Below are positions 2,512 through 25,788 of a DNA stretch of 31,135 nt, piece by piece. The first letter of the stretch is position 1. Each line of letters opens with the position of its first letter. The stretch spans positions 1 to 31,135 of IMG/VR virus record IMGVR_UViG_3300034073_001342. One strand, given 5' to 3'. The notes below the pieces were generated by a model that made no database searches, was not told the origin of the DNA, and was given only the letters and a program-made list of their open reading frames with translations. Source of the stretch: a virus. A program made the translations under genes and the position numbers.

Positions 2512-3813
2512 GTGAATGCGAATAATCATCAAGGGAGTCCCATTGGACTTACCCGACCCGACGGCGATCCTGCTCTTGCAGCGGGGCGCAGCACACTTAC
2601 CAGAGGAGTCAGTCGTAGATCCTCGGACGCAGTCCGAGCCCTCTGGTACTCGAACGCCCCGTGGGCGGGAACGGGCTACGGCCAACAAACCCAGCAAGCG
2701 GTCCAAAGGCTCATCAAAGACGGGCACGAAATCGCAATCCACGCAATCTACGGGCTCGAAGGGTCAACGTCGACGTGGAACGGCATCAAAATCTACCCGA
2801 GGGGAATGAGCGCTTATAGCGACGATGTGGTCGTTGCGCATTGGATGGAGTGGACTCAGGCAACAAATCTGCCCAAGTTGCTGATGACGTTGTTTGACGT
2901 GTGGGTGTTGAAGGCCCCGAACCTGGACAAGGTTCCGAACATTGCGTCGTGGGTGCCGGTGGATCACCAGCCGTGTCCGCCGGAGGTTGCTGCGTTTTGT
3001 CAACGTCCGAATGTGATGCCTATTGCGATGAGCCAGTTCGGTGCTCGCATGTTGGAGCAGTTAGGGATTCGCAGCCTGTATGTTCCTCACGGTATCGAGT
3101 CGGTGTTCAAGCCGACGCCAAGCATCAAAGACCAGGGTGGCAAGTCAATCACTGGCCGTGAAATCATGGGGTTTGCTGAGGATCAGTTTGTGGTCATGAT
3201 GACCGCAGCGAACAAGGGTGTCTATCCGCCACGCAAGGCGTTCGCTGAGAACTTCATGGCCTTCAGCATGTTTGCCCAGAAACATCCTGATGCGGTGCTG
3301 TATATGCACTCTGAGGAGATGGGGTCGGCTGGTGGTATCAACTTGAAGGAGTTGGCTGAGATGTGCGGTATTGAGCCGCATCGCATCAAATATGCCGACG
3401 CCTACCTCTACCGTCTAGGTTTGCCCCAGAACGCTATGGCAGCCCTCTACAGTGGCGCTGACGTGCTTCTGGCGGCCAGCATGGGGGAGGGCTTCGGTAT
3501 CCCTGTGGTGGAGGCTCAGGCGTGTGGTACGCCCGTTATCGTCTCGAACTTTACGGCTCAGCCGGAGTTGGTTGGGGATGGTTGGGTTGTGGAGGGTCAG
3601 CCGTTTTGGGATGCTGCTCAGAAGTCGTGGTTTTTGACGCCTTCGGTGCCGAGCATTTTGGATGCGTTGGAGCAGGCGTATGCCCGTGGTCGTGGCCGTT
3701 CTAAGAAGGCTGTGGACTTTGCGAAGCGTTATGAGGCGGATGCTGTGTTTGAGTCGCATTGGAAGCCGGCGATGAAGGAGATTGCTGAGTGGTGCCGCTT
3801 GTCCCAGTCGTAG
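2512..3813 (+). CDS. GT-B glycosyltransferase, GT4-like
   Basis: The protein probably transfers a sugar from a nucleotide-sugar donor, most likely to a virion protein given its place directly after the capsid gene. The fold signature is clear: WYSNAPWAGTGYGQQT near the N-terminus, then in the C-terminal domain AASMGEGFGIPVVEAQACG, the E-x7-E donor-binding motif of GT4, followed by TPVIVSN. The start is uncertain. GTG 2512 is the only start codon in frame before the conserved region; GAGGAG (2501-2506) is 5 nt away. The first 40 or so residues are low-complexity and unlike a glycosyltransferase, and another ORF from ATG 2516 overlaps them. An ancestral start may have been lost, or a frameshift may join the two frames. 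The next gene overlaps its end by 25 nt. Confidence 0.85.
   Translation: MNANNHQGSPIGLTRPDGDPALAAGRSTLTRGVSRRSSDAVRALWYSNAPWAGTGYGQQTQQAVQRLIKDGHEIAIHAIYGLEGSTSTWNGIKIYPRGMSAYSDDVVVAHWMEWTQATNLPKLLMTLFDVWVLKAPNLDKVPNIASWVPVDHQPCPPEVAAFCQRPNVMPIAMSQFGARMLEQLGIRSLYVPHGIESVFKPTPSIKDQGGKSITGREIMGFAEDQFVVMMTAANKGVYPPRKAFAENFMAFSMFAQKHPDAVLYMHSEEMGSAGGINLKELAEMCGIEPHRIKYADAYLYRLGLPQNAMAALYSGADVLLAASMGEGFGIPVVEAQACGTPVIVSNFTAQPELVGDGWVVEGQPFWDAAQKSWFLTPSVPSILDALEQAYARGRGRSKKAVDFAKRYEADAVFESHWKPAMKEIAEWCRLSQS
2516..2809 (+). CDS. Possible small protein overlapping the glycosyltransferase start
   Basis: This 97-residue ORF starts at ATG 2516, 9 nt after AGGAG (2502-2506), a better spacing than for GTG 2512. 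Its first 35 residues (MRIIIKGVPLDLPDPTAILL, then LQRGAAHLPEES) look like a real protein of the type seen just after capsid genes: a short beta hairpin, an LPD turn and a helix ending LLxRGAA. The rest is Ser/Thr/Lys/Arg-rich and probably only a shadow of the glycosyltransferase frame. Either the region is truly dual-coding, or a small head gene lost its stop when a deletion fused it to the downstream gene, or a -1 shift joins them. I cannot decide between these from the sequence alone. Confidence 0.4.
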   Translation: MRIIIKGVPLDLPDPTAILLLQRGAAHLPEESVVDPRTQSEPSGTRTPRGRERATANKPSKRSKGSSKTGTKSQSTQSTGSKGQRRRGTASKSTRGE

Positions 3814-17480: not shown

Positions 17481-17723
17481 ATGAAACCATCAGAGAAACT
17501 GTTACTCAACGGCATGTTCATGTTCGCATGGATAGGCCTCTGGTTGATCGGACCAGAGAACCCTGACACCCCGTACACAGGATGGCAACTTGCTATCTTC
17601 GCTGTCGTGCTCGTCGCAGGATTCATATCGGCTGTCCGTTCATGGACACAACTGCTTCAACAACGTCACGCTGACCGTCTCAAAGAAATCTTGGAGCGCC
17701 GTGACCGACGAACCAATCGCTAA
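17481..17723 (+). CDS. Small protein with two membrane segments
   Basis: The protein has 80 residues. Residues about 8-24 (LLNGMFMFAWIGLWLIG) and 36-54 (WQLAIFAVVLVAGFISAV) form a hairpin of two membrane helices, followed by a basic helical tail (QQRHADRLKEILERRDRRTN). AAGGAGG (17470-17476) is 4 nt before the ATG. Such a layout fits holins and many phage-encoded inner-membrane proteins; its position away from the endolysin and next to the exported lysozyme-like gene leaves the role open. It overlaps the WhiB gene by 23 nt. I do not recognise a family. Confidence 0.6.
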   Translation: MKPSEKLLLNGMFMFAWIGLWLIGPENPDTPYTGWQLAIFAVVLVAGFISAVRSWTQLLQQRHADRLKEILERRDRRTNR

Positions 17724-17997
17724 CTGGACAAACGAAGACAACGTCTTCATCGGCAGACACCCCTCGTGGTACCGTCACGCAGCGTGCTACGGCAAATCAG
17801 GAGACCTGTTCTTTGAGGAAGGTGTACGGCGACTCGTCATCGAAGCCAAGTCATATTGCGTCAAATGCCCCGTTCGCATCAACTGCTTGGAACACGCCAT
17901 CGCCAATGAAGAAGTTGGTGTGTGGGGTGGGATGACAACAACTGAGCGGAGGCGTGAGGTCCGTCGTAGGATGAGGATTCGTGGCGCATCCCAATAA
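17701..17997 (+). CDS. WhiB-family Fe-S transcriptional regulator
   Basis: The 98-residue protein has the four cysteines of WhiB proteins, C29, C53, C56 and C62 (C-x23-C-x2-C-x5-C), which bind a 4Fe-4S cluster. The turn GVWGGMTTTERR follows, with an Arg-rich end (RREVRRRMRIRG) for DNA contact. Phage-encoded WhiB proteins, such as that of mycobacteriophage TM4, can repress a host WhiB and alter septation or superinfection; a similar role is inferred here. The family is essentially limited to Actinobacteria and their phages, so this is the best host marker in the window. GTG 17701 is preceded by GGAG at 17692-17695 and overlaps the membrane protein gene. The frame continues into a 17-nt overlap with the nuclease gene. 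Confidence 0.92.
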   Translation: MTDEPIANWTNEDNVFIGRHPSWYRHAACYGKSGDLFFEEGVRRLVIEAKSYCVKCPVRINCLEHAIANEEVGVWGGMTTTERRREVRRRMRIRGASQ

Positions 17998-19890: not shown

Positions 19891-20287
19891 GTTCATGGAA
19901 TCAACATCAGGCGGCCCCAAACTGCCTGCACTCAAATTCGCCAAAGTCGGCGACACCCACACAGGCGTCGTCACAGAGGTGACCAAACTGCAAGACAAAG
20001 ACCCGGCAGGCAACGTCAAAACATATGACAACGGTGATCCACGTTGGGTGTTCGTCTTCACCCTCGACACCCCAACCGGTGCATCAAACCTGTGGGTACG
20101 AGGCCAGATGGTCAAAGCCATCCGAGAAGCAGCCGAAAAAGCATCCGTCAAAACGCTCGTCGGTTCCACCCTCAGCGTCCGCTACACAGGCGACGGCGAA
20201 AAGAAATCGGCTGCATTCAACGCACCCAAGCTCTACGCCGCCAAAGTCGAACCAGCAAAGAACGACGCCTCGGCGGAAATGTGGTGA
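19883..20287 (+). CDS. Single-stranded DNA-binding-like protein (OB fold)
   Basis: This 134-residue protein begins with a flexible acidic segment (MDEFMESTSGGP), then PALKFAKVGDTHTGVVTEVT, the first strands of an OB fold, followed by PRWVFVFTLDTPTG, WVRGQMVKAIREAAEKA and LVGSTLSVRYTGDG, a typical strand. The 'KF..vGd.h.G.V..v' start and 'L.VrytG.g' strand match actinophage SSB-type proteins. It would coat single strands made by the RecB-like nuclease or at the fork opened by the helicase encoded at 23485. The start is ATG 19883, 6 nt after AAGGAG. No acidic SSB-type tail is obvious at the C-terminus (ends DASAEMW). Confidence 0.72.
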   Translation: MDEFMESTSGGPKLPALKFAKVGDTHTGVVTEVTKLQDKDPAGNVKTYDNGDPRWVFVFTLDTPTGASNLWVRGQMVKAIREAAEKASVKTLVGSTLSVRYTGDGEKKSAAFNAPKLYAAKVEPAKNDASAEMW

Positions 20288-20379
20288 ACCTCATCGCCCC
20301 ACTCTCTGCTGGGGCGTTGATGCTGGTCGTTCTCTGGCTTGCCCTGCGTAGGTCAGAGAACGACCACCACAATCAGTAA
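20284..20379 (+). CDS. Possible 31-residue single-pass membrane peptide
   Basis: GTG 20284 overlaps the preceding stop (GTGA) and opens MNLIAPLSAGALMLVVLWLA followed by LRRSENDHHNQ. It has one membrane segment and a positive end on the cytosolic side by the positive-inside rule. Only overlap and topology support this; there is no Shine-Dalgarno sequence close by. The strong hairpin at 20385-20430 begins 5 nt after its stop. Confidence 0.4.
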   Translation: MNLIAPLSAGALMLVVLWLALRRSENDHHNQ

Positions 20380-20384
20380 TCCTC

Positions 20385-20430
20385 GTGACCGGGGCAGGTT
20401 TTTCCCTTCCCCTTTTCCTGCCCCGGTCAC
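20385..20430 (+). terminator. Perfect 14-bp hairpin with pyrimidine loop
   Basis: GTGACCGGGGCAGG (20385-20398) pairs without mismatch with CCTGCCCCGGTCAC (20417-20430). The 18-nt loop contains only C and T. No T-run follows the stem, so it is not a standard intrinsic terminator; it could stop transcription by other means or be a protein-binding structure. It separates the recombination genes from the small-gene block. Confidence 0.6.
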
Positions 20431-20449
20431 ACCCCACTAGAAAGTTGCC

Positions 20450-20581
20450 ATGACAAAACAAGAGATACGAGACGCCATCAACTTCCTGCGACGAGTGTTC
20501 GTCGGCCAAGGAGACGTAGACCGCCTCGAAGCAGTCATCAAAGCCCTAGAAACCGAACTCGCAAGGAGAAACAAAAAATGA
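20450..20581 (+). CDS. Small 43-residue helical protein
   Basis: ATG 20450 begins MTKQEIRDAINFLRRVFVGQ, followed by a helix and a basic end ELARRNKK. It overlaps the next start (ATGA) and supplies its ribosome site (AAGGAG in the last codons), which supports real translation. It looks like a two-helix protein. I know no family. Upstream, CTAGAAAGTTGCC offers only a weak GAAAG ribosome site. Confidence 0.5.
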   Translation: MTKQEIRDAINFLRRVFVGQGDVDRLEAVIKALETELARRNKK

Positions 20582-20802
20582 GCTACGACCTGGACGCCCT
20601 ACGACAAATGAACGAGGAGGCACAGATACGCATCAGCGAACTCTCCACCGCCCTCGCCACCATCACCGAACAACGAGACAACCTCCAAGACTCACTTGAT
20701 GCAGCCATCAACGAAATGGACGCACACAAAACCCACATCCACCACCTCACCACCACCATCGAACGGCTACGCCTCCACATCCAACAAGGAGTTGAACTGT
20801 GA
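20578..20802 (+). CDS. Coiled-coil protein, 74 residues
   Basis: It is almost entirely one long amphipathic helix with heptad spacing: LDALRQMNEEAQIRISELST, then ITEQRDNLQDSLDAAINEMD and IHHLTTTIERLRLHIQQ. It probably oligomerises as a coiled coil. AAGGAG lies 9 nt before the ATG, and the stop overlaps the next GTG start (GTGA). A scaffold, inhibitor or partner for another protein are all possible; I see no specific function. Confidence 0.62.
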   Translation: MSYDLDALRQMNEEAQIRISELSTALATITEQRDNLQDSLDAAINEMDAHKTHIHHLTTTIERLRLHIQQGVEL

Positions 20803-21149
20803 ACCACGACTACACCAAACCCGACAGCAACGGTGCAGACATCCTCACCGAAGCCCACAACCTCATCACCGGACCACGCCAACAGGCCTACTCACACCCA
20901 TTCGACGACTATTGGAAAGTCACCCAACTGTTCCACAACATGACCGGCATCCAACTCTCCATCAAACAAGCCATCACCTTCATGATCTGCGTCAAACTCG
21001 CACGCATCGCCACCAACGACCAACACGGACGCTGGCACCGAGACTCCGTCGTCGACGCAGCCGGATACCTCGGCTGCCTCAGCATGGTCCACGAACACAT
21101 CCAACAAAAACGTGAAGACGCCGTCACCCGATTCAAGGAGAACTCGTGA
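20799..21149 (+). CDS. DUF6378-like phage protein
   Basis: The 116-residue protein has EAHNLITGPRQQAYSHPFDD, YWKVTQLFHNMTGIQLSIKQ and AITFMICVKLARIATN, ending HRDSVVDAAGYLGCLSMVHE. This 'i..gdR...Yg.P...f......w....g......p..va..m...K.aR......h.Ds..D.aGY..l' layout is that of DUF6378, an all-helical family common in phages. The conserved H/D and DxAGY residues suggest a metal-dependent all-alpha NTP pyrophosphohydrolase relative, although activity has not been shown to my knowledge. It may affect nucleotide pools. Start GTG 20799 follows an AAGGAG; the stop overlaps the next GTG (GTGA). Confidence 0.75.
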   Translation: MNHDYTKPDSNGADILTEAHNLITGPRQQAYSHPFDDYWKVTQLFHNMTGIQLSIKQAITFMICVKLARIATNDQHGRWHRDSVVDAAGYLGCLSMVHEHIQQKREDAVTRFKENS

Positions 21150-21370
21150 ACATCGCCGACCCCAAATTCGCCACCGTGCTCGCTGACCAAGACGGCCACT
21201 CACGCTGGATAGGACACATTGACGCCACCGACATCATGAACGCCTACCGAACAGGAGGCATCCACCTCCTCGTCACCCTCAACCCAGAAGGTGATATCAC
21301 TGTCGCATTCAAGCCAGGGCGACACTGGCAAACCACATGGTCGCCACCAATAACCTTGGAACGCAAATGA
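21146..21370 (+). CDS. Hypothetical protein, 74 residues
   Basis: The product is a small beta-rich protein: MNIADPKFATVLADQDGHSR, then WIGHIDATDIMNAYRTGGIH and ITVAFKPGRHWQTTWSPPIT. Alternating strands and a central Ala/Met/Asn helix suggest a compact fold, with several exposed His and Trp residues. GTG 21146 overlaps the previous stop and follows AAGGAG. The stop overlaps the next ATG. I know no family and infer no function. Confidence 0.6.
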   Translation: MNIADPKFATVLADQDGHSRWIGHIDATDIMNAYRTGGIHLLVTLNPEGDITVAFKPGRHWQTTWSPPITLERK

Positions 21371-21456
21371 ACACGCTCGACCCGATCCGACCCTGCGGCT
21401 GCACCCCACTCCCCACACACCCACAATGCGAAGATGGCGATGACGAAGAAGACTGA
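21367..21456 (+). CDS. Possible 29-residue Cys/acidic peptide
   Basis: ATG 21367 overlaps the preceding stop (ATGA) and encodes MNTLDPIRPCGCTPLPTHPQ followed by CEDGDDEED: three cysteines and an acidic end. The gene overlaps the next one by 23 nt. The consistent overlap pattern supports translation, but it is short and lacks a strong ribosome site. Confidence 0.4.
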   Translation: MNTLDPIRPCGCTPLPTHPQCEDGDDEED

Positions 21457-21676
21457 CCCCATCGAGCACTACCTCAACAGCACCGGGGCAGGCTGGTGCA
21501 TCAAATACGTGCTCATCGCCGTCGTCGAAGACGAAGACTCCGACCAATCGTTCTACATACAATGCTTAGAAAACCAGACAGCAGCCGAAACCATCGGCCT
21601 CTGCGAAGCTGTCTCCCACATACAGAAAGCCAAGATCGCAAAAGCATGGATGGACAGAGAAGCCGAAGAAGAGTGA
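21434..21676 (+). CDS. Hypothetical protein, 80 residues
   Basis: The protein reads MAMTKKTDPIEHYLNSTGAG, then a strand (YVLIAVVEDE), an acidic loop, YIQCLENQTAAETIGLCEAV and a C-terminal helix (AKIAKAWMDREAEEE). Three cysteines are spread along it. The pattern is that of a small alpha/beta protein; 'WCIKYVLIAVVEDEDSDQSF' could be a sheet. GAAGATG surrounds the start, a weak GAAG ribosome site. It overlaps both neighbours. I recognise no family. Confidence 0.6.
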   Translation: MAMTKKTDPIEHYLNSTGAGWCIKYVLIAVVEDEDSDQSFYIQCLENQTAAETIGLCEAVSHIQKAKIAKAWMDREAEEE

Positions 21677-21792
21677 CCTGGCATTGCCCCCGATGCCCCA
21701 ACCACATCACCCTCCACATCACCCCCACCACACCCCCCACCTGCACCCGCCACAACCCACCCCACCCCATGAACCCCGGCAAAACCCAATAA
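21673..21792 (+). CDS. Small zinc-ribbon-like protein, 39 residues
   Basis: GTG 21673 overlaps the preceding stop (GTGA) and encodes MTWHCPRCPNHITLHITPTT, then PPTCTRHNPPHPM. The C-x2-C knuckle, the LHIT strand and the second C-x-x-H pair fit the tiny zinc-binding proteins I know from actinophages, which often read 'y.CPrC...l..hv.pt.pP.C.....h.pt.M'. Their role is unknown; nucleic-acid binding is plausible. It is the last gene before the intergenic promoter region. Confidence 0.6.
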   Translation: MTWHCPRCPNHITLHITPTTPPTCTRHNPPHPMNPGKTQ

Positions 21793-21800
21793 CCACGCCA

Positions 21801-21830
21801 TTTGGCAGATTTCTAAAAAATCTTGCCAAA
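21801..21830 (+). terminator. A/T-rich hairpin before the promoter region
   Basis: TTTGGCAGATTT (21801-21812) pairs with AAATCTTGCCAAA (21818-21830) with one bulged A. It probably ends the 20.45-21.79 kb transcript, although no T-run follows on the + strand. On the - strand the stem is preceded by A-rich sequence. Confidence 0.45.
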
Positions 21831-21834
21831 AGAC

Positions 21835-21863
21835 TTGCAATTGTCTGACATAGGCACTAACTT
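21835..21863 (+). promoter_or_regulatory. Candidate promoter, TTGCAA - 17 bp - TAACTT
   Basis: TTGCAA (21835-21840) and TAACTT (21858-21863) have ideal 17-bp spacing; the -10 fits the actinobacterial TANNNT form. TGTCTGACA (21842-21850) in the spacer is an inverted repeat that could be an operator. Transcription would begin near 21870, at or beside ATG 21871. The decamer GCACTAACTT recurs upstream of the HNH gene (25463-25472, within ACGCACTAACTT). Confidence 0.5.
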
Positions 21864-21876
21864 GTCATACATGGCA

Positions 21877-21902
21877 AAGGAGGCCACAATGAACACCACA
21901 CA
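21877..21902 (+). repeat. Translation-start direct repeat, copy 1
   Basis: This 26-nt block covers AAGGAGG, the ATG and the codons for MNTTH. It is identical at 25 of 26 positions to 22124-22149, which starts the next gene. Confidence 0.85.
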
Positions 21903-22125
21903 CCAATACATCTGCTACTGCGGATGCAACGACACAGTCAACGTCGAATTCACCAACGGATTCGCCGGCACCGAGGTTCGCATCACTCTTTGCGAAACCC
22001 AGAAGACCACAAACGGCATCATCACCGCAGCGATCTTCCCCCGCTCATTCGCACTCAAGATGACACCAGCCAACCAAATCAACACGACCGCTCACATCAA
22101 CGGTCTCGTCACATTCAACGCCTAA
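21889..22125 (+). CDS. Hypothetical protein, 78 residues, first of a duplicated pair
   Basis: It starts MNTTHQYICYCGCNDTVNVE and continues with FTNGFAGTEVRITLCETQKT and a beta-rich end. CYCGC near the N-terminus may bind a metal. AAGGAGG (21877-21883) is 5 nt before ATG 21889. An ATG at 21871 lies in frame and 7 nt after the -10, so a leaderless start adding MAKEAT is also possible. The first 26 nt of its initiation region recur at the next gene, although the proteins diverge after MNTTH. Being first after a good promoter suggests early or high expression. I know no family. Confidence 0.65.
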   Translation: MNTTHQYICYCGCNDTVNVEFTNGFAGTEVRITLCETQKTTNGIITAAIFPRSFALKMTPANQINTTAHINGLVTFNA

Positions 22126-22149
22126 GGAGGTCACAATGAACACCACACA
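22124..22149 (+). repeat. Translation-start direct repeat, copy 2
   Basis: This is the second copy of the AAGGAGG-to-MNTTH block (25 of 26 bases identical to 21877-21902). The repeat stops just after codon 5 of each gene. Confidence 0.85.
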
Positions 22150-22351
22150 TCGCTATCAAGACACCAACGGGCGCATTGCCTGCTACAACCACATCGGATG
22201 CTCAGCGCAAGCCGAAATCAACAACAACGCAAACATCACCGAATTCCACACTGACCTGACCTCATGGTTCCGCATGACCAACGAAGAAGTCACCGAATTC
22301 GCAACACTCATCAACAACCACGAAACCTGCGAAGACTGCCGCCACCAATGA
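22136..22351 (+). CDS. Hypothetical Cys-containing protein, 71 residues
   Basis: The product begins MNTTHRYQDTNGRIACYNHI with GCSAQAEINNN following, contains DLTSWFRMTNEEVTEFATLI and ends HETCEDCRHQ. C16, C22, C66 and C69 could make one zinc site (C-x5-C with C-x2-C). AAGGAGG lies 5 nt upstream of the ATG, in the repeated block. The stop overlaps the next start. A small zinc-binding protein is the best description; the partner and function are unknown. Confidence 0.65.
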   Translation: MNTTHRYQDTNGRIACYNHIGCSAQAEINNNANITEFHTDLTSWFRMTNEEVTEFATLINNHETCEDCRHQ

Positions 22352-22506
22352 CCAACTACAAGACCTATCCGATGGTGTCGTTTCGATGTGACAACAACTT
22401 CCGCAAAGCTCTCGAACAAGAAGCCAAACGCCGCAACGTCAGCGTCAGCGAACTCATCAAAGAAGCCGTCACCAAACACCTCAGCATGCATCAAGGTAAC
22501 CAGTGA
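22348..22506 (+). CDS. Ribbon-helix-helix (CopG/Arc-type) DNA-binding protein
   Basis: This 52-residue protein has the classic RHH order: a short strand (YPMVSFRCD), helix 1 (NNFRKALEQEAKRRN), a V-S-V-S turn and helix 2 (ELIKEAVTKHLSMH). Such dimers insert the paired strands into the major groove and usually repress their own operon or a neighbour. The inverted repeat TGTCTGACA at 21842-21850, in the promoter for this gene set, is a candidate operator. The ATG overlaps the previous stop (ATGA) and its own stop overlaps the Mom-like gene start (GTGA). This would make it a candidate regulator of the modification gene. Confidence 0.75.
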   Translation: MTNYKTYPMVSFRCDNNFRKALEQEAKRRNVSVSELIKEAVTKHLSMHQGNQ

Positions 22507-23183
22507 ATGATCGAGAGAGTTTTTCCATCACCAGACAACTTGATTTGTTTCCAGGAGAAACATCTCAATATTCTGTGCAACCAATAGAAAAAGAGTCAAC
22601 ACATTTTTTTCTACTCAATATTCACTACGCAAAACGTATCCCATCAGTTTCACATGCCTACGGACTATTCAAGGACGGAGAACTATGCGGAGTCATCACC
22701 TATGGAATGCCAGCATCCCCATCACTATGCAAGGGTGTCGCTGGGGAAAAATGGAAATCAAATGTCATTGAACTCAATCGACTATGCCTACTCAACAACG
22801 AACCAAATGAAGCATCCAGACTTGTGGGAGGATCACTTCGACTACTACCAAAACCCAAAATTGTGGTCTCGTACGCCGACACACATCAACAACATCTTGG
22901 ATACGTCTATCAGGCAACCAACTTCATCTACACCGGCATCACCGTCAAAAGAACAGAATGGGCAATCAAAGGTCTAGAACATATGCACACAAAAGCCATC
23001 GCCAACATGGCCGGAGCTGGCGGTCTCAACGCCATCAAAGAACGATTTGGAGACAGGTTTTATTACCGAGACAGAAGCCAAAAACATAGATACATCTATC
23101 TGGTCGGAAACAAAACACAACGAAAAGAAATTGCAAAAGACATCAAATATCCACAGCTTCCATTTCCCAAGGAAACCAAATGA
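22503..23183 (+). CDS. Mom-like DNA (adenine) modification protein
   Basis: This 226-residue protein has the pattern of phage Mu Mom homologues (GNAT-like fold): HYAKRIPSVSHAYGLFKDG near residue 41, GVITYGMP at 63-70, ELNRLCL at 90-96, and VVSYADTHQQHLGYVYQATN then FIYTG at 121-145. Mu Mom modifies adenines to N6-carbamoylmethyladenine and protects phage DNA from restriction. I infer a similar antirestriction role. The gene is much more AT-rich than its neighbours: the 60 bases from 22561 are 30% G+C, against 60% for 24481-24540. That suggests recent transfer. It starts with GTG 22503 (GTGA overlap with the RHH gene) and overlaps the HTH gene at its end. No Com-like translational activator is recognisable, although the RHH protein could serve in regulation. 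Confidence 0.8.
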   Translation: MNDRESFSITRQLDLFPGETSQYSVQPIEKESTHFFLLNIHYAKRIPSVSHAYGLFKDGELCGVITYGMPASPSLCKGVAGEKWKSNVIELNRLCLLNNEPNEASRLVGGSLRLLPKPKIVVSYADTHQQHLGYVYQATNFIYTGITVKRTEWAIKGLEHMHTKAIANMAGAGGLNAIKERFGDRFYYRDRSQKHRYIYLVGNKTQRKEIAKDIKYPQLPFPKETK

Positions 23184-23446
23184 CCCATCGACGCAGTCGA
23201 CCCAAACACCACTGGTGCTTCCCCACCCACAACCTCATCAACCACTTCCCACCCGGCACCAACACCCACACCATCGCCAAAACACTCGGCACCACCACCA
23301 CCACCATCCACCGATGGAAAAACCACAACATCAACCTCACCCCCTACCAAGCCGACCACTACGCCATCAAACTCGGCGAACACCCCAGCATGATCTGGAC
23401 CAACTGGTTCGACCAACCCGAACTCGGCCCCACTCAACTAACCTAA
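23180..23446 (+). CDS. Helix-turn-helix DNA-binding protein
   Basis: The 88-residue protein is rich in His, Thr and Asn. Its core, TNTHTIAKTLGTTTTTIHRW followed by a short loop and LTPYQADHYAIKLGEHPSMI, matches small actinophage HTH proteins, '..ia..lG.s..tv.rW...gl....aD.lA...G.hP..iW..W'. It probably regulates transcription or aids replication. The ATG overlaps the last codons of the Mom-like gene (ATGA), and the composition switches here from AT-rich back to AC-rich. No Shine-Dalgarno sequence is obvious. The end (NWFDQPELGPTQLT) is typical of the family. Confidence 0.68.
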   Translation: MTHRRSRPKHHWCFPTHNLINHFPPGTNTHTIAKTLGTTTTTIHRWKNHNINLTPYQADHYAIKLGEHPSMIWTNWFDQPELGPTQLT

Positions 23447-23484
23447 ACACACCCCGCCCCACAACACCCCAAGGACACCCGCCA

Positions 23485-25335
23485 ATGACCATCCTCGACC
23501 ACGCACTCCTCTACGCCCGACGAGGCATCCGAATCATCCCCATCGCACCAGGCGAAAAATATCCGGCAGGAATCGAAGCATGGCAAACCATCGCCACCAG
23601 CAACGAAACCACCATCACCGAATGGTTCACCACCACCTACAAAAACTGGGGAGTAGGCATCTGCACAGGCCGAGCAGGCACACGCCAAATCTTCGTCCTC
23701 GACATCGACGAACACAACCCACAACAATCAGGCTCCGACACACTCAACGACCTAGAAACAGAACACGGCAAACTCCCCGACACCGTCACCGTCCTCACCC
23801 CCACCGGCGGCAAACACCTCTACTTCACCACACCCATCCCCATCCGCAACGACGCAGGCAAACGCCTCGGCCCAGGACTCGACATCAGAGGCGACGGCGG
23901 CCAAGTCCTCGCACCACCCACCATCCACCCCAACGGCAAACCATACGCCTTCGAGGACGGCTACAGCATCACCGACATGAAACCAGCCGACGCCCCCGAA
24001 TGGCTCATCAAACGACTCACCGCCGAACCCAAAATAGACCGCACACGCCCAGCAGACGGCGACATCTTCCTCACCGACCCCAACTCACCCTCCACCCGCT
24101 ACAACAACCAACACCACTGGAACACCATCCTCACCCAAGACGGCTGGACCTACGTCTACCAAGGCCAAGACGGCACCGAATACTGGCGACGACCAGGCAA
24201 AACCACCGGCATCTCCGCCAGCCTCAACCACAACAACAACGACGCCCTCATCGTCTTCAGCAGCAACGCACCCGTCCCCGAAGGCGGCTACAGCAAATTC
24301 GGCTATTACGCCCAACGCCACCACCAAGGCTCCTGGAAAGCAGCAGCAGCCCAATACCTCAACACCAACCCCAACACCACGACCAGCACACCCGACGAAC
24401 TCCTCTCACAACTCATCAACTGGCAAGACTTCTGGAACCAAGACCACAAAGCCGAAGACTGGATCGCCTACCCACTCATCGCCAGAGGCCGACAAACCGC
24501 CCTCTTCGCCGTCAGCAAAGAAGGCAAAAGCTACATCGCCCTCGCCTGCACCGCAGCCCTCGCCACAGGCAAACCCATCTTCGGACGCCCAGCACAACCC
24601 CCAACCCACGTCCTCTACCTCGACTACGAAATGACCTCCTCCGACCTCCTCGAACGCCTCGACAACCTCGGCTACACCCGAGAAGACAACCTCACCCACC
24701 TCCACTACGCCCTCATCCCATCACTCCCCCCACTCAACACCTACGAAGGCGCAGCAGCCGTCATGAAACTCGTAGAACTCACCCAAGCCCAGGTCGTCGT
24801 CATCGACACCACCGGACGAGCCGTACAAGGCGAAGAAAACTCAGCCGACACCTACCGAGAATTCGCACGCACCACAGGACTCGCCCTCAAAGCCGCCGGC
24901 ATCGCCCTCCTCCGCACCGACCACGCAGGCAAAGACAAAGGCAAAACCCAAGGCCAACGAGGATCATCAGCCAAAAACGACGACGTTGACATCGTCTACC
25001 ACCTCCAACGAGACGGCCACACCATCAAACTCACCCGCATCTTCTCACGCATCGGCTGGGCACCCAACGAAATAGAACTCGTCGAAGAACAACTCGAAGA
25101 CGACTACAACCCCATCCGACTCAAAGAAACCCAAGAAACCTTCACCCAAGACACCTACGACCTCGCCCGACGCATCCTCTCAGCCTTCCCCGAACTCAAA
25201 CCCGGCATGAAACAAGAAGACACCCTCAAGTTCAGAGACGAAGCCAGAGCACGAGGCATCAAAGCCAAGAACTCCAAATGGTCCAAAGCCCTACGAGCCA
25301 TCGCCCAAAACAGACTCCGAGACCCCCTCGAATGA
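23485..25335 (+). CDS. Primase-polymerase/AAA+ helicase fusion replication protein
   Basis: This 616-residue protein combines priming and unwinding. Residues 1-190 are a Prim-Pol (PF09250-type) domain: RGIRIIPIAPGEKYPAG at the start, motif I VLDIDEH (D73, D75), motif II GGKHLYF (H111) and motif III GLDIRGDGGQVLAPP. Residues about 325-540 are an AAA_25/RepA-like ATPase: LFAVSKEGKSYIAL (Walker A variant with KEGKS), then LYLDYEM, VVVIDTTGRA (Walker B) and LLRTDHAGKDKGKTQ. The last 60 residues are helical. No DNA polymerase gene is visible, so replication probably uses a host polymerase. ATG 23485 follows AAGGA (23471-23475). A cluster of repeats lies just downstream. Confidence 0.9.
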   Translation: MTILDHALLYARRGIRIIPIAPGEKYPAGIEAWQTIATSNETTITEWFTTTYKNWGVGICTGRAGTRQIFVLDIDEHNPQQSGSDTLNDLETEHGKLPDTVTVLTPTGGKHLYFTTPIPIRNDAGKRLGPGLDIRGDGGQVLAPPTIHPNGKPYAFEDGYSITDMKPADAPEWLIKRLTAEPKIDRTRPADGDIFLTDPNSPSTRYNNQHHWNTILTQDGWTYVYQGQDGTEYWRRPGKTTGISASLNHNNNDALIVFSSNAPVPEGGYSKFGYYAQRHHQGSWKAAAAQYLNTNPNTTTSTPDELLSQLINWQDFWNQDHKAEDWIAYPLIARGRQTALFAVSKEGKSYIALACTAALATGKPIFGRPAQPPTHVLYLDYEMTSSDLLERLDNLGYTREDNLTHLHYALIPSLPPLNTYEGAAAVMKLVELTQAQVVVIDTTGRAVQGEENSADTYREFARTTGLALKAAGIALLRTDHAGKDKGKTQGQRGSSAKNDDVDIVYHLQRDGHTIKLTRIFSRIGWAPNEIELVEEQLEDDYNPIRLKETQETFTQDTYDLARRILSAFPELKPGMKQEDTLKFRDEARARGIKAKNSKWSKALRAIAQNRLRDPLE

Positions 25336-25443
25336 TGTCCCCGAATCGGGGACATGACACGGGGACACCAATCTGAAACCGTTGGTGGATAAGGGGACAT
25401 GTGTGTGTAACGTAGTTACACACATGTCCCATCCCTCGTCCCC
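25335..25443 (+). repeat. GGGGACA repeats and palindromes, candidate replication origin
   Basis: GGGGACA occurs at 25348-25354, 25361-25367 and 25393-25399; the inverse TGTCCCC occurs at 25336-25342, with partial copies at 25425-25430 and 25438-25443. They form a perfect hairpin, ATGTCCCCG (25335-25343) with CGGGGACAT (25347-25355), and a second long stem, 25394-25411 with 25415-25430 (16 pairs, 2-nt bulge, GTA loop). Between them CACCAA and TTGGTG pair. Being next to the primase-helicase gene and at a skew switch supports an origin; a terminator pair is the alternative. Confidence 0.5.
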
Positions 25444-25485
25444 ACACAAATAAAGAACAAACGCACTAACTTCAACACAAGCTCC

Positions 25486-25788
25486 ATGCCCATTCGTCGC
25501 CCCTGCATCAACTGCCGACAACTCACCACCCAACCCACCAGGTGCCCAACCTGCACCGGCAAACAACAAGCCATCCGCAACGCCTCACGACCCCACTACC
25601 GAGGCGACTACCCAGAACGAGCCCGCCTCGTCAGAGACACCGCCACCCACTGCTGGATCTGCGGCGAAGGCCCACGCCCCGACGACCCCTGGACAGCCGA
25701 CCACGTCTTCGGCCCCGAGTCCGACGTCCTCGCAGCAGCCCATCGCAGTTGCAACTCCAGTCGAGGCGCACGAGACCAACGACGCTGA
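25486..25788 (+). CDS. HNH endonuclease
   Basis: This 100-residue protein has two zinc knuckles at the N-terminus (C7-x2-C10 and C20-x2-C23) and a typical HNH core: HCWICGEGP (C56, C59), WTADHVF (D72-H73) and AAAHRSCNSSRG (H86, C89, N90). Small HNH proteins encoded beside the terminase genes are required for cos cleavage in HK97-like phages. I infer the same here, where it is directly before the small terminase. ATG 25486 lies 13 nt after TAACTT (25467-25472), with no Shine-Dalgarno sequence; a very short leader is possible. A free-standing homing nuclease is less likely given the position. Confidence 0.85.
   Translation: MPIRRPCINCRQLTTQPTRCPTCTGKQQAIRNASRPHYRGDYPERARLVRDTATHCWICGEGPRPDDPWTADHVFGPESDVLAAAHRSCNSSRGARDQRR

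Follow-up and report, generated by a model that had tools for sequence, protein, structure and literature searches.

The locus described here raises three linked questions: whether an AT-rich gene near the primase gene of a siphovirus encodes a DNA-modifying enzyme of the Mom family, how the gene came to be there, and which donor molecule its product would use. The window, i.e. the whole stretch of DNA that was analyzed, is an IMG/VR virus record of 31,135 bases (Table 1). A megablast search of the window against named phages returned no nucleotide relatives. By its portal (46%), the nearest named phage is Pontimonas phage phiPsal1, which is like the window phage in its length (31,069 bp) and gene order. 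Its replication region holds a modification gene, encoding an N6 DNA methylase, although no Mom is annotated in this phage. From the portal kinship and the WhiB-like gene, we infer an actinobacterial host for the window phage; the same kinship to phiPsal1 points to a freshwater origin. A glycosyltransferase-like gene (phrog_2170; positions 2512-3813) directly follows the capsid gene, as it does in phiPsal1.

Table 1. Features of the window and of compared loci. Positions are those of the window unless preceded by an L number; L numbers are the labels of the compared loci.
Feature	Position	Strand	Remarks
Capsid gene	starts 1148		
Tape measure gene	starts 9029		
WhiB-like regulator gene	17590-17997		
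80-aa conserved ORF (p80)	21434-21676	+	Left border of variable island
Small Cys-containing island ORF, 78 aa	21889-22125	+	No functional assignment; not Com-like
Small ORF, 71 aa	22136-22351	+	CEDC near C-terminus; not Com-like
RHH (CopG/Arc-like) gene	22348-22506	+	Pfam RHH_1, E 4.5e-7; stop overlaps mom start
Exchanged segment	22490-23183		Absent from L086 and L093
mom, 226 aa, GTG start	22503-23183	+	Mom-family, GNAT-fold; predicted DNA adenine-modifying enzyme
60-base windows of at most 30% G+C	22556-22639 (extent)		Includes T7 run
Small HTH-like gene	23180-23446	+	Weak HTH_23 match, E 0.037; start overlaps mom stop (ATGA)
Prim-Pol/AAA primase-helicase gene	23485-25335	+	Prim-Pol E 2.1e-39, AAA_25 E 1.5e-20; right island border
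Large terminase gene	starts 26374		
Portal gene	starts 28028		
tRNA-Gly-like elements	L086:523-601; L002:1470-1548; L093:2575-2653; L150:4894-4972		

The original prediction of a Mom-like gene is borne out by tests of family, fold and active site. All of the sequence patterns to which it had pointed (HYAKRIP, ELNRL and SYADTHQQHLGYVYQATN) are present in the product. The protein matches Pfam family PF25680 with 135 bits (E 3.6e-39; curated cut-off, 27.1 bits) over model positions 2-202 of 202, and phrog_1384 with 196 bits (E 1.4e-57); its match to Mu Mom (PDB 8bv8) has an E of 1.5e-10 by sequence and of 4.9e-32 with a profile. An AlphaFold model of the protein (67 sequences; pLDDT 91.5) has 8bv8 as its top PDB match in Foldseek (E 1.5e-12; TM 0.67/0.69), and GNAT acetyltransferases, which are CoA-dependent, rank next. 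A check of whether the best homologs fall outside the Mom group found them inside it. Among named phages, the closest homologs are Mom-like proteins (phrog_1384) from Listeria A511-like phages and from Proteus phages. These are 42-46% identical to the window protein across 89-90% of its length, differ in their hosts and contexts, and have no annotation more specific than Mom-like, hypothetical or acetyltransferase. PADLOC defence models had no match to mom or to the RHH and HTH genes that flank it. Judged from its sequence and modeled structure, the product is a full-length Mom-family protein and thus belongs to an already known family.

It had also been proposed that the modification may be new. 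With 23% identity to Mu Mom, and within a family of such diversity, donors and targets could differ, and the window protein could be a Mom homolog that employs a different acyl group or acts on a different base. However, the window protein keeps every residue that does not vary between Mu Mom and the family at large. Besides the initiator, ten residues are invariant in Mu Mom and diverse aligned members (H41, Y42, E90, R93, S105, A125, D126, G133, Y136 and N140, in window numbering), and the invariant positions of the 67-member alignment are H41, Y42, R93, S105, A125, D126, H131, G133, Y136, N140 and K194. The serine among them is of particular relevance: by its title, 8bv8 is an inactive Ser-to-Ala mutant (S124A), and its alanine sits where the Mu genome encodes the serine that aligns with S105. 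The window protein therefore has in common with Mu Mom a whole-length profile match, the GNAT fold and the invariant residues, including the mutated serine. Further, the tRNA element described below is consistently of the glycine type across the family. A new modification is distinctly unlikely, and the proposal is without support; the conserved catalytic residues favor a Mu-type adenine modification.

The base composition of the gene is as had been claimed. The 60 bases from position 22561 have 30.0% G+C, a value this low being reached in only 15 of the contig's 31,075 60-base windows, all of which begin at 22556-22580; the next genes, put at about 60% G+C, come near that figure (HTH, 57.3%; primase, 58.4%). 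Over its full length mom has 42.9% G+C (GC3 0.38), compared to 55.6% (sd 2.0) in the 24 other ORFs longer than 400 nt (z = -6.3), and it is the lowest-G+C 681-base window of the contig, the lowest elsewhere being 50.1%. Low G+C could, in principle, be a property of the amino-acid sequence or of the family and not a mark of recent acquisition. Indeed, the moms of related actinophages (L003, L120, L118 and L115) are all AT-richer than their own contigs, and those of L003 and L120 (only 54-61% protein identity) have ~43% G+C within contigs of ~54%; since these two are equally AT-rich, low G+C alone cannot date the acquisition. Nonetheless, we consider it very unlikely that the family accounts for the composition of the window gene, because its G+C deficit relative to its surroundings (-0.136) is the largest among 123 mom-bearing loci, the other 122 have a mean difference of only -0.021 (sd 0.047), and the G+C content of Moms rises to 55-68% where the contig is GC-rich. 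The evidence from empty sites and synonymous divergence, to which we now turn, is independent of composition.

The original prediction held that mom was likely recently acquired, and this is supported more by empty sites and mosaic nucleotide identity than by G+C content. In L086 and L093, which have ~97% nucleotide identity to the window on both sides, the HTH gene directly follows the RHH gene with no mom between them; in L084, which has a ~97% identical backbone, a cytosine-C5 methyltransferase gene (PF00145) is found at the mom site. Locus L002 is 97.2% identical to the window over positions 22500-23183, with sharp edges, whereas in its RHH and HTH flanks identity falls to 85.0% and 83.2% (Fisher p 9e-15 for the contrast with mom). 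Likewise, dS between the window and L002 is 0.08 for mom as against 0.37 for the primase, 0.34 for p80 and 0.28 for the HTH gene. Recent acquisition is well supported by these comparisons, which imply that mom moved between backbones recently and is exchangeable cargo, carried in a DNA-modification slot beside the primase. Near-identical phages with mom, a C5-methyltransferase or nothing at one locus amount to a natural experiment in anti-restriction exchange.

The copy of mom in L002, the only close one, also bears on whether the gene is functional. It has a T6 run where the window has T7 (window 22596-22612; L002:4255-4275), and this one-base deletion results in a frameshift, which may reflect an assembly or sequencing error, a dead gene in decay, or slippage. 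That the closest copy is frameshifted and that the nearest relatives have no such gene would agree with mom being a decaying passenger that has no current function in the window phage. This is highly improbable, however, given that the window copy is intact, that its codons overlap those of both neighbors, and that modification genes recur in the slot. Further, the dN/dS values of homologous pairs (0.17 for the window mom and L002; 0.08 for L118 and L115) indicate purifying selection.

The recurrence of modification genes is evident in related viral contigs, which yielded 71 complete intervals between p80 and the primase. A recognized DNA-modification gene (mom, or a C5- or N4/N6-methyltransferase) is present in 31 of these intervals, and none was recognized in the other 40. 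Twenty of the 31 have a C5-methyltransferase (two of these also have one of the N4/N6 type), eight have a Mom, and three have only an N4/N6 methyltransferase. Where primase identity is at least 93%, all six intervals hold a modification gene, in differing combinations. One gene further along, L093, with its ~97% identical backbone, encodes an unrelated Mom (27% identical; 101.6 bits to PF25680). Orphan phage DNA methyltransferases (PF00145, PF01555) lie in the same island in the near-identical phages L084, L085, L086, L093 and L160. These enzymes differ from Mom in that they transfer methyl groups from SAM and have an unrelated fold, but, as occupants of the same island, they probably serve the same anti-restriction role. 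Other genes were also observed in islands of this kind: a related phage encodes a DruA-like protein (L105:706-1551; PF14236, E 8.1e-18) between its HTH and primase genes, a PAPS-reductase-like gene (L109:3362-4186; phrog_424, E 3.4e-37) adjoins a C5-methyltransferase gene, and class I SAM methyltransferase-like genes occur at L118:984-1661, L126:3298-3981 and L002:5116-5658.

A second set of questions concerns the control of mom. The gene had been described as having a small RHH regulator directly upstream, an HTH protein downstream and no recognizable Com, and each of these points is confirmed: both neighbors overlap mom (the HTH profile match being weak), a tblastn search with Mu Com gave no significant match, and no small ORF with a CxxC-CxxC arrangement lies near mom. 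Further, a Com-like ORF is found upstream of mom in none of the 117 mom loci having an upstream ORF, and no inhibitory RNA structure was found over the mom start, where the predicted fold is weaker than those of shuffled sequences (z-score +1.04). The Cys-containing ORFs at 21889 and 22136 were considered as substitutes for Com and rejected, as neither fits the Com motif and the 71-aa ORF has homologs in the mom-less loci L097 and L102. No homolog of the 78-aa ORF was found in related loci. A com-mom operon of the Mu type was likewise rejected for the window, there being neither a Com nor a structure at the start codon. In Mu, mom belongs to a late com-mom operon, whereas the window gene is located in a replication-side island and its GTG start overlaps the RHH gene.

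The further suggestion that this control may be new is not supported. The HTH gene is present in 67 of the 71 complete intervals, 59 of which have no mom; the RHH gene is present in five mom-less intervals, and in relatives it precedes C5-methyltransferase genes or empty sites. Because both genes occur without mom, they are part of the island, and we rejected each as a mom-specific regulator. The codon overlaps on the two sides of mom (GTGA with RHH and ATGA with HTH) suggest that it may be expressed by translational coupling within an operon.

The identity of the donor for Mom has long been debated. In the Mu literature, acetyl-CoA, together with iron, has been proposed. An acyl-CoA such as glycyl-CoA has been named as the donor elsewhere (PMC7824862), and a 2025 meeting report (PMC12908700) states that the Mu modification requires tRNAGly, from which the glycyl group is transferred. 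Several of the compared loci bear on this debate, in that the divergent Moms of L086, L002, L093 and L150 have a tRNA-like element at the gene start or directly before it. A scan of all viral contigs with a 21-base T-arm pattern, which was blind to Mom, returned 92 loci. After inspection we left out ten of these, which were judged to be ordinary tRNA or to code for protein; two of the ten (L302 and L339) score 40-48 bits with a covariance model, with which true tRNA-Gly-like elements usually score 55-88 bits. A Mom gene adjoins 74 of the 82 tRNA-Gly-like matches (in L286-L377), on the same strand and either overlapping or within ~50 bases, with Pfam confirmation for five of the weaker Mom matches; one further match has a Mom 1.3 kb upstream. 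The element is at the 5' end of mom in 46 cases (14 distinct) and at the 3' end in 28 (18 distinct). Of 42 bacterial mom loci, 10 have a strong element by the covariance model (55-75 bits), and 96 mom-less loci from the same phage groups, used as controls, have none (maximum, 20 bits).

The elements retain the features of a structured, glycine-type RNA. When 35 of them were analyzed with RNAalifold, 15 of the 21 stem pairs showed compensatory changes. G1-C72 and C2-G71 are kept without exception in the 32 distinct elements adjacent to Mom; U73 is present in 30 of these and an encoded CCA in 26. In the tRNA-Gly-like elements, both Cs of the glycine anticodon have a conservation of 90% or more. 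We take these base pairs, U73 and the anticodon Cs to be the identity elements for bacterial glycyl-tRNA synthetase. The T-loop has GUGC in place of GTpsiC, which is a feature of the staphylococcal tRNA-Gly that is used for cell-wall synthesis and not for translation. With the usual T-loop sequence thus replaced, the tRNA-Gly mimic is probably kept out of translation. A comparable arrangement is described for Dehalococcoides ssrA islands (PMC3146451), in which a tRNA-Gly-like locus with a DCC anticodon is located at the 5' end of mom, as in L002, L086, L093 and L150. That description differs in covering one lineage, with no link to donor chemistry; here, 74 viral Mom genes are involved, and the window itself has no element. 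In the literature that we searched, we did not find a broad, structured, Mom-linked tRNA-Gly family described beyond Dehalococcoides. The element-bearing Moms supply natural pairs of enzyme and tRNA.

In the window, the best match to the element scores 10.4 bits with filters off, i.e. no element is present, and positions 20000-25500 have no Rfam matches. Within the Mom branch to which the window protein belongs, a strong element is found in one of 84 sources; in this source, L162, a window-type mom lies directly after an element-bearing mom and just before a primase-like gene. Because the window and most window-type Moms are without the element, the claim regarding the donor draws on distant relatives and on Mu. 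The absence of an element from the window would also be expected if the enzyme is a Mom that uses acetyl-CoA with iron-radical chemistry and the proximity of tRNA-Gly-like genes to other Moms is incidental. The GNAT fold, the CoA-dependent acetyltransferases that are the next structural neighbors of the model, and the CoA donor stated for Mom (PMC7824862) all agree with that alternative. Arguing against it are the tight, same-strand adjacency of the tRNA-Gly-like genes to Mom at either end, the lack of elements in the mom-less controls, and the tRNAGly dependence reported for Mu (PMC12908700), and we regard an acetyl-CoA donor as unlikely.

Instead, the fact that dozens of Moms are accompanied by a conserved tRNA-Gly-like gene constitutes independent genomic support for glycyl-tRNA as the donor and fits the report on Mu. 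Given that the window has no tRNA element, its Mom probably uses the glycyl-tRNA of the host. For the family at large, we lean toward a view in which Moms are dependent on glycyl-tRNA, many carry their own tRNA-Gly mimic, the branch that includes the window Mom has no mimic and uses host glycyl-tRNA, and phages swap Moms in one island for methyltransferases.

The best explanation of the locus as a whole, and one that we hold to be quite probable, is that the gene encodes an anti-restriction Mom that was swapped in as cargo and that obtains glycine from host glycyl-tRNA. The mom gene would have entered recently between the RHH and HTH-like genes, with the overlapping stop and start codons kept. 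Late in infection, its product would modify adenines of the phage DNA: the GNAT-fold enzyme would move glycine from glycyl-tRNA(Gly) to adenine N6, as Mu and the RNA association suggest, and a rearrangement would then give the glycinamide base of the Mu type, alpha-N-(deoxyribofuranosylpurin-6-yl)glycinamide (Swinton et al. 1983, as cited in PMC3146451). DNA modified in this manner would presumably escape host restriction enzymes. Some phages would supply a dedicated tRNA for the reaction, and the window phage would rely on that of its host. The original observation is confirmed and its interpretation partly supported; the Mom-linked tRNA-Gly family, absent from the window, is the wider surprise.

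Two further observations concern the surroundings of these genes. Just after the primase gene in L002 (7674-7737) is a short tRNA/tmRNA-like element with a CCA end, which scores 26.8 bits with the Rfam tmRNA model, below the gathering score. Finally, two backbones (L086:518-1186 and L002:1450-2058) have a second Mom, divergent and accompanied by its tRNA-like element, inserted at the same spot upstream of the 20578 gene, and this insert has on both flanks ~20 bases that resemble window positions 20563-20582.
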